Assembly (NCBI GenBank): GCA_902793405.1
Contig: CADBDH010000017.1
Span: forward strand, 1-64,000
DNA: 64,000 bases
Source of the DNA: an uncultured Bacteroidales bacterium
GTDB lineage: Bacteria; Bacteroidota; Bacteroidia; Bacteroidales; Muribaculaceae
Reading direction: 5' to 3'
The translations under genes were made by a program, and so were the position numbers. Shown piece by piece: positions 54,550 to 61,526 of this stretch. Below the pieces are notes generated by a model. The model saw nothing but the letters and a program-made list of their open reading frames with translations. It was not told the DNA's origin and ran no database searches. The stretch's first letter is position 1. Each line of letters starts with the position of its first letter.

Positions 54550-56766
54550 ATGGTGGCTACTCAGGAATATTTCACACAAGAAGAGCGCGTCCAGCTGCTG
54601 CAGCTTGTCAAGGACTTAAACGACAGGCTTGGCAGGCAGTTGACATGCCAGGACATCAACACGGTGCACCACCTGATTGAGCAGGGCATCACCCAGGCTG
54701 ACATCTTTCGCCGCGACCAATATGGACTCAATCCGGTGCTGCGTCACCTGCGCACCGCCCTCACGCTGTGTGACAGCATCGCGCCCGACCGCACGATGGT
54801 CATTGCGACGATGATTTACAACCTGTGCCGCAAGGATTTCCTCGATGTTCCACGGGTGAAAAAACTCTTCGGCAGCGACATCGCCGGCATTGTCCATGGC
54901 CTGCTGCATGTCGCAAGGCTGTACAAGAAACAGGCTGCCGTCGAGAACGAGAACTTCCACAAGCTGCTGCTCACCTTTGCCGAGGACGTGCGCGTCATCC
55001 TCATCATGACGGTCGACCGCCTGGCCCTGATGCGCGCCATCAACCATCACCCCAACGAGAAGTTTGTACAAGAGATAGCCAGCGAGTCCCGCTATCTGTA
55101 TGCGCCGCTGGCCCACAAACTGGGCCTGTACGCCATCAAGAACGAGCTGGAGGACACGTCGCTCAAGTACTTGAACCGCAAGGTATTTACCCAAATCGCC
55201 AACCGTCTGCAAGAAACCAAGGAAGCGCGCGACCGCTATGTCGAGAACTTTATCGAGCCTATCGACAAAAGGCTGAAGGAGGAAGGCCTGAAATTTGAGC
55301 TCAAGGGCCGCACCAAGTCCATCAACAGCATCTGGCAGAAGATGCAGAAACAGGGGGTGGACCTGAGCGGCATCTATGACCTGTTTGCCATACGCATCAT
55401 CCTGGACACTACCCCCAAGGACGAGAAACGCGCCTGCTGGCTCGCCTACTCTATCGTAACTGACATCTACAAGGCCAATCCGTCGCGTTTCAAGGACTGG
55501 ATCACCATCCCCAAGAGCAACGGTTATGAATCGCTGCACATCACGGTATATGGGCCCGGGAACAAGTGGGTTGAGGTTCAGATTCGTTCACGCCGCATGG
55601 ACGAGACCGCCGAGCGCGGTGTGGCAGCACACTGGCGCTACAAGGGCATCAAGAGCGACGGGGAGGTGGACAAGTGGATGAACGAGGTCAGGGAGATGCT
55701 CGAGGCCAGCGGCCATGAGGGGCAGATGAACCTGATGCGCAACATGGACACCAACCTCTACAACAACGAGGTGTTTGTCTTCACGCCCAAGGGCGACCTC
55801 ATCCGCCTGCCTCAGGGAGCCACCATCCTGGACTTCGCCTTCCACATTCACTCACGCGTGGGCAGCACCTGCATGGGCGGCAAGGTGGACGGGAAGAACC
55901 AAAAGATCAATTACCGGCTGCGCAGCGGCGACACCGTCGAGGTCATCACATCATCGACCCAGACGCCCCGCCTGGACTGGCTGAACATCGCGGTCACCAG
56001 CCGTGCGCGCAACAAAATCAAAAACGCCATCAACGAGCGCCGCGCCCGTCAGGCCCAACTCGCCCGCGAAACACTGCAACGGCGCTTCAAGAACCGCAAG
56101 ATCGAGCCCGACGACGCCACGTTGGCACGCGTCATCAAGAAGATGGGCTACAAGACGACGACCGAATTCTATGCCGCCATCCAGGAGGACATCATCGACG
56201 TGAACACGGTCGTCGAGCAATACGAAGAGATTCTCGCCAAGAAGGATGAGACCACCAGCCGTGGCACTGCCGAGGAGTTCATCCTCCAGCAGCCCACCCT
56301 TCATGACGATCGCCACGACGATGACATTCTGACCATCGGCGATGACGTCAAGGGCGTGAACTACAAGCTGGCCCGATGCTGCAACCCCATCTTTGGCGAC
56401 CGCATCGAGGGCTTCATCGCCAGCGACGGGGCCATCAAGATTCACCGCACCGACTGCAAAAACCTGCATCACCTTAAGGGACGCTACCCCTACCGCATCA
56501 TCCGCACCCGCTGGACAGGCAAAGCGGGAAACCAGTTCGTCGCCACCCTCAAGGTGCTGGGACGCGACGACATCGGCATTGTATCGTCCATCACATCGGT
56601 CATCAACAAGACCGACAACTGCCTGCTGCGCAGCATCTCGGTCCAGGCCGAGGGAGGCCTGTTCGAAGGGTTGCTCAGCGTGAACGTCAACAACATTTCC
56701 CTGCTTGACGACCTGACCAAAAAGCTACTTAACATCAAGGGTGTCAAGCAAGTGGACAGGATATAG
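54550..56766 (+). CDS. RelA/SpoT homologue, synthetase with degenerate hydrolase
   Basis: The 738-aa protein has the long RSH layout. The N-terminal HD domain (about 45-180) has lost its catalytic residues: the expected LLHDVVEDT reads TMIYNLCRKD near residues 88-97 and the HP pair reads NP, so ppGpp hydrolysis is unlikely. The synthetase domain (about 245-375) is intact: GRTKSINSIWQKM, IPKSNGYESLHITV and VEVQIRS with the catalytic Glu. A TGS domain (about 405-465) and an ACT domain (from about 665) follow. It should act as a RelA-type (p)ppGpp synthetase. Confidence 0.93.
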   Translation: MVATQEYFTQEERVQLLQLVKDLNDRLGRQLTCQDINTVHHLIEQGITQADIFRRDQYGLNPVLRHLRTALTLCDSIAPDRTMVIATMIYNLCRKDFLDVPRVKKLFGSDIAGIVHGLLHVARLYKKQAAVENENFHKLLLTFAEDVRVILIMTVDRLALMRAINHHPNEKFVQEIASESRYLYAPLAHKLGLYAIKNELEDTSLKYLNRKVFTQIANRLQETKEARDRYVENFIEPIDKRLKEEGLKFELKGRTKSINSIWQKMQKQGVDLSGIYDLFAIRIILDTTPKDEKRACWLAYSIVTDIYKANPSRFKDWITIPKSNGYESLHITVYGPGNKWVEVQIRSRRMDETAERGVAAHWRYKGIKSDGEVDKWMNEVREMLEASGHEGQMNLMRNMDTNLYNNEVFVFTPKGDLIRLPQGATILDFAFHIHSRVGSTCMGGKVDGKNQKINYRLRSGDTVEVITSSTQTPRLDWLNIAVTSRARNKIKNAINERRARQAQLARETLQRRFKNRKIEPDDATLARVIKKMGYKTTTEFYAAIQEDIIDVNTVVEQYEEILAKKDETTSRGTAEEFILQQPTLHDDRHDDDILTIGDDVKGVNYKLARCCNPIFGDRIEGFIASDGAIKIHRTDCKNLHHLKGRYPYRIIRTRWTGKAGNQFVATLKVLGRDDIGIVSSITSVINKTDNCLLRSISVQAEGGLFEGLLSVNVNNISLLDDLTKKLLNIKGVKQVDRI

Positions 56767-56847
56767 CGAATGGGGAGCAGGATATCAGGAAATGGGAAAA
56801 TATGCAACTATTCACCGTTTTCTGTTATCTATTCACTAAAAAAGCAG

Positions 56848-56855
56848 TACCTTTG
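56848..56855 (+). promoter_or_regulatory. -7 element 8 nt before the exonuclease start
   Basis: TACCTTTG is followed by TCCCCGTC and then ATG; the mRNA leader can be only a few bases at most. Confidence 0.55.
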
Positions 56856-56863
56856 TCCCCGTC

Positions 56864-57487
56864 ATGCAAGTTGTATCTATTGACAAACAAGACATCAACC
56901 AGATGCCCCTGGTCACCTTCCCCGGGCGCATCCACATCATTAACGCCATCTCGCAGGTGAAGAGTGCCGTCGCCGCTTTGCAAACCTCGCCCATCGCGGG
57001 TTTTGACACCGAGACGCGCCCCAGCTTCAAGCGCGGTGAGCGACACAACGTCGCCCTGTTGCAGCTCTCAACTGCCACCGACGCCTTTCTGATTCGCCTG
57101 AACAGGACCGGAATCCCTGCTCCACTCAAACAATACCTCGAGAATCCCGACATCATCAAGGTGGGCCTCTCGACAACCGACGACTTCCATCAGCTCACCC
57201 GACTGTGCGACATCCGCCCCGCCGGCTTTGTCGAGCTGCAGCAGTTGGTCAAGCAATATGACATTACCGACATGAGCCTGCAGAAGATCTACGCCATCCT
57301 CTTCCAGCAAAAGATCAGCAAGGGGCAACAACTCACCAACTGGGAAGCTCCCCAACTCAGTGACGCCCAGCAGCGCTACGCAGCCATCGACGCATGGGCC
57401 TGCCTGCGCATCTATGAGCACCTGCAGTCGGGCGCATTTATCCCCGAGCAGTCGCCCTATTGGCACGAACTCGTCGAGGAAATCTGA
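56864..57487 (+). CDS. 3'-5' exonuclease of the RNase D/DEDD type
   Basis: The 207-aa protein is a DEDD exonuclease domain: GFDTETRPSF (first Asp and Glu), LSTTDDFHQL (second Asp) and YAAIDAWACLRIYE (Tyr and last Asp of Exo III). It lacks an HRDC domain, so it is not full RNase D. It probably trims RNA or DNA 3' ends. It lies between the RSH gene and the tmRNA gene in the same direction. Confidence 0.88.
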   Translation: MQVVSIDKQDINQMPLVTFPGRIHIINAISQVKSAVAALQTSPIAGFDTETRPSFKRGERHNVALLQLSTATDAFLIRLNRTGIPAPLKQYLENPDIIKVGLSTTDDFHQLTRLCDIRPAGFVELQQLVKQYDITDMSLQKIYAILFQQKISKGQQLTNWEAPQLSDAQQRYAAIDAWACLRIYEHLQSGAFIPEQSPYWHELVEEI

Positions 57488-57516
57488 TTTTTTTTGAAAA
57501 AAACGCGCCAAACAGA

Positions 57517-57546
57517 TTGCTTGGCACGGAATTTGTTGTACCTTTG
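57517..57546 (+). promoter_or_regulatory. Promoter of the tmRNA gene
   Basis: TTG (57517-57519), 19-bp spacer, TACCTTTG (57539-57546). TTGGCACGGAATTTGTT (57521-57537), overlapping the spacer, also resembles a sigma-54 -24/-12 element with one mismatch (TTGT for TTGC). Confidence 0.65.
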
Positions 57547-57574
57547 CAGGCCGTTTACACGGATACATACTATT

Positions 57575-57920
57575 GGGGCTGACTGGCTTTGACAGCGTGT
57601 AGAGGTGGTAAGCAAGCATGCAGAGCGATAATGGCAAGGCTCTTAAATCTCAGTCATTGACACAGCACAGTAAGTTCGGCTTTATCATTGCCCAAGGGGC
57701 AGTGACGAGACATCACCCAACTGCCCTCGCGCCGAGGCGGGTTGATACGGTGGTGCTGGAATATCGGCGATAGGACAAGGCAAGCCTCGGGCCGAGTCCG
57801 AGATTTAGAGGATAAGCTACTGGTTGGTCGTCTTGGGCCTGCCAGCGGTCGAAAACCAAGCCAAGACTAAGCATGTAGAAACCTTATTAGTTCCACGTTT
57901 GGACGAGGGTTCAAACCCCT
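57575..57920 (+). ncRNA. ssrA: tmRNA-like gene without recognisable tag frame or acceptor 3' strand
   Basis: The 5' end GGGGCTGACTGGCTTTGACAG, AAGCATGCAGAG, CTTAAATCTCAG, GACGAGACATCAC, TTTAGAGGATAAG, CTAAGCATGTAGAAA and the T-arm GACGAGGGTTCAAACCCC are all Bacteroidota tmRNA blocks in the correct order. Between CTTAAATCTCAG and GACGAGACATCAC, related tmRNAs encode a tag ending YALAA; here that interval is short and I find no such frame. After the T-arm the sequence should pair with GGGGCTG and end in CCA; instead it reads GCTGATTCTCAGC. It may be a broken gene altered by an integrated element. Confidence 0.75.
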
Positions 57921-57976
57921 GCTGATTCTCAGCGACTTATTTTTATTCCAAAATTTTGTACCCCTTTTTGTACCCC
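57917..57976. other. Putative attachment site next to ssrA with tandem 11-bp repeats
   Basis: The T-arm of the tmRNA gene is followed by a small hairpin (GCTGA-TTC-TCAGC) and by two exact copies of TTTTGTACCCC (57954-57964 and 57966-57976). Direct repeats beside a tRNA or tmRNA 3' end are usual at tyrosine-recombinase attachment sites. No integrase gene is seen nearby. Confidence 0.5.
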
Positions 57977-59370: not shown

Positions 59371-59399
59371 TAGAAATTACACAGAATTTTGGCCCTTTG

Positions 59400-59407
59400 T
59401 AATTTTG
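59400..59407 (+). promoter_or_regulatory. -7 element 5 nt before the DUF3853-like gene
   Basis: TAATTTTG followed by CGGCC and ATG; the mRNA from here would have almost no leader. Confidence 0.45.
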
Positions 59408-59412
59408 CGGCC

Positions 59413-59760
59413 ATGATTCAATTCAATGACGAAAATATCATCAAACAACTCCTCAACAAGCGCGTTATCGACATGACAGGCCAGGAGTTGGTGGACCTTA
59501 TAGGCAGCGCGGTTCAACAAGCCACGATGCGTAGCGATATGTCCGAACACAAGGAGAAGAAGCACCTGCATGGCAAGAAGGAAATTGCAGATGCGCTCAC
59601 TGTCTCCATTTCCACGATCAGCCGCTGGCTTGACAATGGTACGATTCACGCTCCAGCAGTCATCCGCGCTGACCGCGTCCTTCTGTTTGACTACGACCTT
59701 GTCCTGAAACAGATCCAGGCGAGCGAGGGTCTCCGCTGGAAGGCCAGGCACGATAACTAA
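59413..59760 (+). CDS. DUF3853-like DNA-binding protein
   Basis: The 115-aa protein has an N-terminal MTGQELVDLI segment and a C-terminal helix-turn-helix (HGKKEIADALTVSISTISRWLDNGTI), followed by a wing-like stretch (VIRADRVLLFDYDLVLKQIQ). This is the build of DUF3853 proteins in Bacteroidota mobile elements. There they sit next to replication or excision genes and may act as excisionase or repressor. The ATG at 59413 is chosen over one 24 bp upstream because the -7 element lies between them. Confidence 0.7.
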   Translation: MIQFNDENIIKQLLNKRVIDMTGQELVDLIGSAVQQATMRSDMSEHKEKKHLHGKKEIADALTVSISTISRWLDNGTIHAPAVIRADRVLLFDYDLVLKQIQASEGLRWKARHDN

Positions 59761-60045: not shown

Positions 60046-60074
60046 TATGAATGATAATTAAAATAAAAAGCATT

Positions 60075-61526
60075 ATGGGACTTTTTAATAGTAACCTGAT
60101 TAATACATTAAGCAAGTGCAAGAATCCGTGGAAAGCTATCGGTTTTAGTGCATTAGGAGCATTTGCTACCGCCGCTGTCACCTATGGTGTTAAGACTGGT
60201 TGGAATTACGTTACAAGTCTATTCCAGACCAAAGCCGCCAAAGACGTGGAAGACTACAAAGCTGAAAAGGCTCAACAGACTGAGACCGAAAAGGCTAAAG
60301 AAGCAAGAGCGACTAAGGAGGCGCAAGCGCAGGCACAGGCAGATGCCTACGAAAGAATGCGTGAGGCTGACGCGAAGCTTTATCGTGAGAAGATGGAGAT
60401 AGATCTGGAGAAGCGCCGCAGGTTCAAAGAAATGGCTGAGCAGCAAAGTGCATCCGCTGGCGATGAACCCGCAAAAGGTCCGTCTGAGCCCATTGATGAC
60501 CTCCTCACTACGGAGAAGTTGTTCAATCGCCGTCGCCGTCGCCGCAGTTGGGAAAGATGGATTGTTCAAGGTTATATCAAGCCTGGACAAATTACGATGG
60601 TAACTGCTGGCAGTGGTGTGGGCAAGAGTATTCTTCTTGCAGAAATAGCTCTGGCTGCGGTTAAGGGAGTACGCCCTGAGTTCCTGCCCGACTCCTGTTG
60701 TGCCTCTATCAAGCAGGATGTGGTGTATTATCGTATTGAAGACTATCCTAGTGAACTTGAGGGCAAATATGGACAAGGTAAAGTGTTCGACGACTCAAAC
60801 TTCAAGTGGGTACTGCCTGAAAACTTGGGTTCCAGAACCTTGGACGGATTACTTGAACATGTAAAACAGTTGGCGCGTCAGCTTGAACACGACACGGTTA
60901 TCTGTATCGATCCGGCCACAAAACTTGACGGTTACAGACATGAGGCGTGCATTAAGGGACTTGAGGAAGCCCAAAGGATTGCCCTGGAACGTGGAATCAC
61001 TCTGACGCCTATAGTTGCTGCCCACAACGGTGAGATTAACGACTGGAAACATCTTTCCAGCGGTGATATCATGGGCGGTGATAAAGGCATTCAACAAGCT
61101 GGTGCAGTCATCGCGTTACGCAATGAAGGTACAGCAAATGGGGAGTGCAGGTTCATTCAATGCCTGAAGGAACCGAAGGGATGTCCAGACCCATACCCCA
61201 ATAATGTTCTCGTATGCAAGAAAGTCAATACTGTAATCGATGAAAACAACTGGTATCTGCATTTCGAGTTCGTGGAAATCAAACCCGAGAAAGATGCACT
61301 GCCAGAGAAGCCCAAGTCCAACAAGGGTAAGACCAGTAGCAGCAAATCCGAGGGGAACGATGCCGAAAATAAGGCAGAGAAACCCAAGAAAAAACGGCTT
61401 AGTAAAGAGGAGAAAGAGACTATTCTCTATGACTCAAAAAAAGGTATTAAGCCCAAGGACATCGCTGAGAAAATCGGGTGCCACGAAAGAACGGTACAGC
61501 GGGTAAAGAAAAACAACAGAGCATAA
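60075..61526 (+). CDS. RecA-like (AAA_25/RepA-type) ATPase with hydrophobic N-terminus, coiled coil and HTH
   Basis: The 483-aa protein has four parts. Residues about 20-45 are hydrophobic (FSALGAFATAAVTYGV). Residues 55-130 are a highly charged, Ala/Glu/Lys-rich likely coiled coil. Residues about 165-395 are a RecA-fold ATPase with Walker A TAGSGVGKS and Walker B VICIDPATKLDG, close to RepA/DnaB-like helicases of plasmids and integrated elements. A Lys-rich linker leads to a C-terminal helix-turn-helix (IKPKDIAEKIGCHERTVQRV). It probably starts element replication. The ATG at 60075 follows an A-rich stretch typical for the group; one at 60051 is possible. Confidence 0.7.
   Translation: MGLFNSNLINTLSKCKNPWKAIGFSALGAFATAAVTYGVKTGWNYVTSLFQTKAAKDVEDYKAEKAQQTETEKAKEARATKEAQAQAQADAYERMREADAKLYREKMEIDLEKRRRFKEMAEQQSASAGDEPAKGPSEPIDDLLTTEKLFNRRRRRRSWERWIVQGYIKPGQITMVTAGSGVGKSILLAEIALAAVKGVRPEFLPDSCCASIKQDVVYYRIEDYPSELEGKYGQGKVFDDSNFKWVLPENLGSRTLDGLLEHVKQLARQLEHDTVICIDPATKLDGYRHEACIKGLEEAQRIALERGITLTPIVAAHNGEINDWKHLSSGDIMGGDKGIQQAGAVIALRNEGTANGECRFIQCLKEPKGCPDPYPNNVLVCKKVNTVIDENNWYLHFEFVEIKPEKDALPEKPKSNKGKTSSSKSEGNDAENKAEKPKKKRLSKEEKETILYDSKKGIKPKDIAEKIGCHERTVQRVKKNNRA

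Follow-up and report, generated by a model that had tools for sequence, protein, structure and literature searches.

A native tmRNA gene assembled without its tag and 3' acceptor strand in an uncultured Bacteroidales bacterium, probably through deletions that do not represent the organism

The stretch of DNA analysed here, hereafter the window, comprises the first 64,000 nucleotides (nt) of contig CADBDH010000017.1 (assembly GCA_902793405.1) from an uncultured Bacteroidales bacterium of the Muribaculaceae. Positions 57575-57920 on its forward strand are the native ssrA gene, which encodes transfer-messenger RNA (tmRNA), and the gene as assembled, having lost two short segments, could be neither charged nor used to tag. 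On balance, and with confidence somewhat above even, we regard an artefact or an unrepresentative molecule as the best reading of these deletions. Loss of trans-translation is not established; the two deletions are all that speaks for it, and claims that trans-translation is altered or lost need read-level proof. If the loss were true, an unreduced genome devoid of the backups for which we searched would offer a direct test of the need for non-stop ribosome rescue. If it is artefactual, which we judge likelier, it is a caution that deletions of 25-105 nt occur in conserved structured RNA genes of these metagenome-assembled genomes (MAGs).

Structure of the gene and its two deletions

The gene begins with GGGGCTG at 57575, and its conserved sequence ends in CCCCT at 57920. 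Infernal matched the tmRNA model RF00023 at 57582-57922 on the forward strand (78.6 bits against a gathering cut-off of 47), with the conserved blocks in standard order and the acceptor strands left unaligned, and this was the sole tmRNA in the window. ARAGORN called no tmRNA in the window and none in the 3.3-kb locus L001, and neither program gave a complete tag or acceptor stem.

For comparison we used a set of 101 genomes of the same genus, 48 of them of good quality (in our labels G denotes a genome and L a locus). The window's genome, G000, is a 3.19-Mb draft in 72 contigs, 90.3% complete, with the gene on contig C17. An exact-match search of a genome collection returned 22 records, such as 'uncultured Prevotellaceae bacterium isolate RUG379' and 'Muribaculaceae bacterium isolate RGIG2290 Goat_Duodenum', and from these titles the genus is mostly known from ruminant-gut MAGs. 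The published RUG set of rumen MAGs, according to its description (PMC6785717), was built from IDBA_ud and MEGAHIT assemblies, which is said of that set and does not place G000 in it. One relative, G065, was dropped from the ssrA alignment, its start motif being unmatched, and 31 aligned relatives remained for the counts of tag and acceptor.

Measured against these relatives, the first deletion (42 nt) takes out all of the GENNYALAA tag with its stop codon, as well as the 5' arm of the hairpin that follows. A tag frame with a YALAA-like end is absent from the window and present in all 31 aligned relatives. The second deletion takes away the 3' acceptor strand, the spacer and, from the terminator stem, its outer 5' part; it amounts to 27 nt in comparison with each of G120, G023, G019 and G093, the four relatives on which it was measured. 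The strand CAGCTCC is missing after 57920, so that the 7-bp acceptor stem with its G3:U70 pair, the alanine identity element, cannot form. The same strand was found by pattern in 28 of the 31 relatives and by eye in a 29th (G115), the remaining two (G009 and G031) being cut by contig ends. The T-loop is kept and the last T-stem pair is lost at the junction, while the D-region is as in relatives.

An earlier note on this DNA, made from the sequence alone, had described a broken tmRNA gene with a retained promoter, no YALAA-like tag frame and some 45 nt absent, and had proposed the ARAGORN and Infernal runs, an alignment with ssrA of close relatives and a search for smpB and a second ssrA, all of which were carried out. 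The broken gene and the missing tag are confirmed by the Infernal match and by the alignment, in which the 42-nt and 27-nt losses are seen, the former close to the estimate of about 45 nt. The promoter box TACCTTTG, which we take to be of the Bacteroidales -7 type, is indeed retained, and at this position the aligned relatives with upstream sequence read TANNTTTG. The note also held that the 3' side cannot pair with GGGGCTG and has no CCA. The acceptor strand is lost, as it said; yet pairing over five bases is conceivable, between GCTGA (57578-57582) and TCAGC (57929-57933), although the predicted fold has that TCAGC paired locally with GCTGA at 57921-57925. CCA is likewise absent, but its absence is uninformative because it is encoded in none of the 28 relatives whose pattern match extends beyond the acceptor.

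What is left of the gene shows no decay. Over 345 columns it has a single private substitution, T for A at 57757, against 0 to 20 in the other sequences; 27 sequences were compared, five of the 32 rows (G101, G111, G114, G009 and G031) having been excluded for coverage below 97%. Viewed as a tmRNA pseudogene, it has lost functional elements, and its remaining sequence has not decayed. A two-piece (permuted) tmRNA was also considered and does not fit: the blocks stand in standard order, and a search of the assembly allowing up to 3 mismatches turned up neither a tag nor a 3' piece at another site. The features of the locus are collected in Table 1.

Table 1. Features of the ssrA locus in the window, in order of position
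Feature	Coordinates	Strand	Remark
RelA/SpoT protein	54550..56766	+	upstream neighbour in part of the genus
3'-5' exonuclease (DNA_pol_A_exo1)	56864..57487	+	immediate upstream neighbour
Promoter box TACCTTTG, presumed -7 type	57539..57546	+	28 nt before gene start; conserved upstream of ssrA in relatives
ssrA 5' part: 5' acceptor strand GGGGCTG, D-region, H2 strand, stretch up to tag	57575..57663	+	
Deletion 1 junction	57663..57664	+	42 nt of relatives absent; about 1 nt microhomology
ssrA 3' part: pseudoknot region, H2 return strand, T-arm minus last pair	57664..57920	+	
Deletion 2 junction	57920..57921	+	27 nt of relatives absent
Terminator hairpin remnant GCTGA-TTC-TCAGC, then T-rich stretch	57921..57945	+	
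DUF3853 protein, putative integrative element at ssrA 3' side	59389..59760	+	
AAA_25 ATPase, same putative element as DUF3853 protein	60051..61526	+	

Distribution among relatives

A DNA match to ssrA is present in 88 of the 101 genus genomes and reaches both ends of the gene in 84 (a hand count that includes G118, matched from query position 24, G084, from 3, and G027, to 344). Eighty of these matches span 385-393 nt (366 nt for the shorter match of G118), and four are short: G000 with 346 nt (same end point), G101 with 354, G111 with 338 and G114 with 283. The last three have internal ssrA deletions of 35, 50 and 105 nt, respectively, which fall in the pseudoknot part, on the downstream side of the tag; their loci are L068/L061 (G101), L069 (G111) and L067 (G114). 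When ARAGORN was run on 31 congener loci, it called a complete tmRNA in 30 (29 with the tag GENNYALAA and one with GENTYALAA), the exception being L053, which a contig end truncates. Across a sample of the order, tmRNA scored over the cut-off in 123 of 139 genomes, among which G000 is the single short, low-scoring one: its match covers 341 nt at 78.6 bits, and those of the other 122 span at least 369 nt at no less than 117.6 bits.

Searched by pattern, the tagless form had zero hits in genome and viral contig collections, where records at or near the window's genome may be omitted, and neither the 5' allele nor the 3' junction matched anything in the viral contig collection, which may omit records near that genome. 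Phage and plasmid collections held only distant ssrA matches at 69-82% identity (1 and 3 records), and no tagless tmRNA in Bacteroidales was found in the literature searched, a statement that extends no further than that literature.

These counts bear on the idea that the gene encodes a functional derivative, tagless and unchargeable, with a non-coding role such as binding to SmpB or to ribosomes with no tagging involved. The undecayed promoter box and pseudoknot region and the presence of SmpB would suit such a role. We nevertheless consider it highly improbable: no second genome has this form, either among the 84 with both ends or among the 122 other genomes of the order sample (all of at least 369 nt), the terminator stem is cut too, and a lack of decay would be expected equally for a fresh or artefactual lesion.

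Second copies and ribosome rescue

About 10% of the G000 genome may be absent from the assembly. In the 3.19 Mb that are assembled, Infernal found no second tmRNA over the cut-off, and neither the tag region nor the T-arm plus acceptor was found elsewhere at up to 3 mismatches. The earlier note had offered, as one possibility, a broken gene with a working copy elsewhere; the gene is broken, and no such copy was found. A broken duplicate whose intact counterpart lies in the unassembled part of the genome would still be compatible with an assembly that is only some 90% complete, and with a variable neighbourhood, some relatives (e.g. G073, G109, G115 and G009) having the spoT block on one contig and ssrA on another. 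Yet the locus is probably the real native ssrA locus, as the spoT-exonuclease block (54550-57581) runs into the first ssrA bases on one contig in 25 of 35 other genomes (block match E = 0; hand count). A second complete ssrA, moreover, occurs in none of the 84 genus genomes with a match reaching both ends, where a few hold short extra pieces. With the lack of a tag or 3' end elsewhere in G000, this makes an unassembled intact copy quite improbable.

The partner protein of tmRNA is intact in G000: SmpB lies at C1:135031-135456 (188.9 bits) in a 161-codon open frame with no internal stop. It was found in 83 of the 101 genus genomes, including all 48 of good quality. Two observations on smpB in relatives may be recorded here. 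In G111, one of the genomes with a shortened tmRNA, the gene at L133 (C49:15300-16300) is divided between two frames, the break coming after model position 107. At L134 (G070 C44:33400-35300) an intact smpB is followed, about 1 kb downstream, by a second copy of the gene's last part.

As for backups, PF00472 matched two proteins in G000, with frames of 385 and 370 codons, taken as the release factors RF1 and RF2. This family has matches in 99 genus genomes, of which 98 show no more than two proteins and one, G121, shows three, so that ArfB is apparently missing from the genus. A search for NFACT-R (RqcH) found none in G000, and none in a Bacteroides control genome either. A real loss would leave G000 without any of the rescue routes looked for (tmRNA, ArfB and RqcH), ArfA-type and unknown factors having been outside the search. 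One could imagine a gut bacterium with an unreduced 3.2-Mb genome in which two recent deletions in the sole ssrA have abolished trans-translation, SmpB is retained while ArfB and RqcH are both lacking, and survival depends on an unknown rescue route or on SmpB acting alone; this strikes us as improbable.

Origin of the deletions

Since the remaining gene is undecayed and SmpB is intact, the deletions are more likely to be an artefact or a very fresh mutation than the mark of a bacterium living without ribosome rescue. We propose that the uncultured Bacteroidales species behind G000 has one native tmRNA gene of the ordinary kind, and that both short deletions would be unrepresentative of the organism, having arisen as an assembly or library artefact or from a minority molecule picked up where ssrA assembles poorly. 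The living cell would then be expected to have a normal GENNYALAA-tagging tmRNA along with its intact SmpB. The absence of decay alongside two disabling deletions counts for this reading, as do the zero hits for all three sequence patterns (tagless form, 5' allele and 3' junction) in collections that may omit records near the window's genome. The gene is also a contig break point in the genus, its match touching a contig end in seven genomes (G009, G021, G034, G117, G031, G084 and G027).

RNase P RNA served as a control in the same genus, with a match in 90 of the 101 genomes and 88 over the cut-off, of which only the two shortest were aligned as suspects. Both proved to have lost sequence: G115 lacks 34 nt, including the conserved AAAAGGCGGGGTAAGAGCCCACCGG (L130, G115 C44:20700-21300), and G112 lacks 25 nt (L131, G112 C21:44900-45500), each genome having a single RNase P match. 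Since loss of the RNase P core would cripple an essential RNA and could hardly be tolerated, and since the affected copy is the sole RNase P RNA found in G115, the lesion in that genome is hardly biological. Deletions were thus seen in 4 of 84 genomes for tmRNA (matches reaching both ends) and in at least 2 of 88 for RNase P (two shortest checked). If such deletions in the structured RNA genes of these MAGs are artefactual, as we judge likelier for G000, loss of a housekeeping RNA should not be inferred from one assembly.

The earlier note had allowed for an assembly error, which is the reading we favour; the deletions in G000 are, we think, more probably artefactual than not. Its suggestion that trans-translation is altered or lost is not supported, given an intact SmpB, a single private substitution in 345 columns, the failure to find ArfB or RqcH, and similar RNase P lesions in sister MAGs.

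Several points weigh against an artefact. No mechanism for one was demonstrated, and junction homology amounts to about 1 nt, because of which a simple chimera through shared k-mers fails as an explanation. A hairpin-mediated artefact was considered and rejected, as losses of one arm (5 of 7 lesions, with 0.57-0.77 expected per lesion under random placement) are not above chance. An artefact at the most conserved, multi-species segments was rejected too: the conservation percentiles (0.87, 0.19, 0.14, 0.35, 0.55 and 0.73 for six of the seven lesions, deletion 2 of G000 being left out) show no trend. Two lesions in one gene are a coincidence under an artefact as well, and the RNase P RNA (375 nt), SmpB and both release factors of G000 look intact. 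Finally, 13 of the 101 genus genomes, including 4 of the 48 of good quality, have no ssrA DNA match, and 16 of the 139 order-sample genomes have no tmRNA match over the cut-off; we take these for assembly gaps, although there may be loss in some. One candidate route to an artefact is the fusion of contigs by a scaffolder without intervening N.

Gene neighbourhood and a possible integrative element

The DUF3853 and AAA_25 proteins encoded downstream of ssrA (Table 1) have relatives that follow intact ssrA in G093 and G019, and a DUF3853 relative does so in G120, that is, in 3 of 13 relatives compared; all three carriers keep the acceptor. No integrase family was found among the 20 contig proteins scanned with Pfam, and a displaced ssrA 3' end or attR, looked for on the rest of contig C17, was not found.

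The putative element matters for the main rival reading, namely a genuine and very recent null allele, in which the strain carries both deletions, trans-translation is lost, and the 3' deletion possibly arose by imprecise recombination of the adjacent element. Such an allele would account for two deletions that both strike indispensable parts (the tag and the acceptor) with no second ssrA copy found in the assembly. The position of the element directly downstream, with related proteins after intact ssrA elsewhere, is consistent with it, and tmRNA fragments from island integration are described in the literature (PMC4131195). We hold it rather unlikely, in that two disabling deletions are accompanied by one private substitution, SmpB is retained in a genome where ArfB and RqcH were not found, the element carriers retain the acceptor, and neither an integrase family among the 20 scanned proteins nor a displaced 3' end on the rest of the contig was seen.

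The terminators found after ssrA in this genus are of several kinds, including a AAGTCGCTGA type and a GAGTAACTATCTGA type followed by TTGGAGC. The AAGTCGCTGA type occurs with a DUF3853 gene in G093, G019, G120 and the window, and without one in G023, G071 and G111. This variety may reflect repeated insertion or loss of elements at the ssrA 3' end.

Comparison with known tmRNA genes and losses

Compared with the single-piece tmRNA of Bacteroidales (RF00023, tag GENNYALAA), the promoter box, 5' acceptor strand, D-region, pseudoknot region and T-loop of the G000 gene are near-identical to those of its congeners, whereas the tag frame, the 3' acceptor strand and the last T-stem pair are gone from the assembled gene. 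The shortened tmRNA genes of G101, G111 and G114 resemble it in belonging to the same genus and in having internal ssrA deletions. Unlike it, they keep both tag and acceptor, and ARAGORN calls them complete. These are possibly pseudoknot-reduced tmRNAs that represent real, tolerated losses, which hints that some ssrA deletions in the genus may be real.

Beyond the genus, Hudson et al. (2014; PMC4131195) report bacteria that lack tmRNA, tmRNA pseudogenes and tmRNA fragments made by genomic islands. The pseudogenes described there and the G000 gene as assembled are alike in that an ssrA unable to work stands in a genome that has kept smpB, and fragments are possible where a genomic island integrates. 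In the Carsonella PC gene described in the same source, by contrast, all conserved regions are degraded, whereas the gene in G000 is undecayed and resides in a genome of 3.2 Mb.
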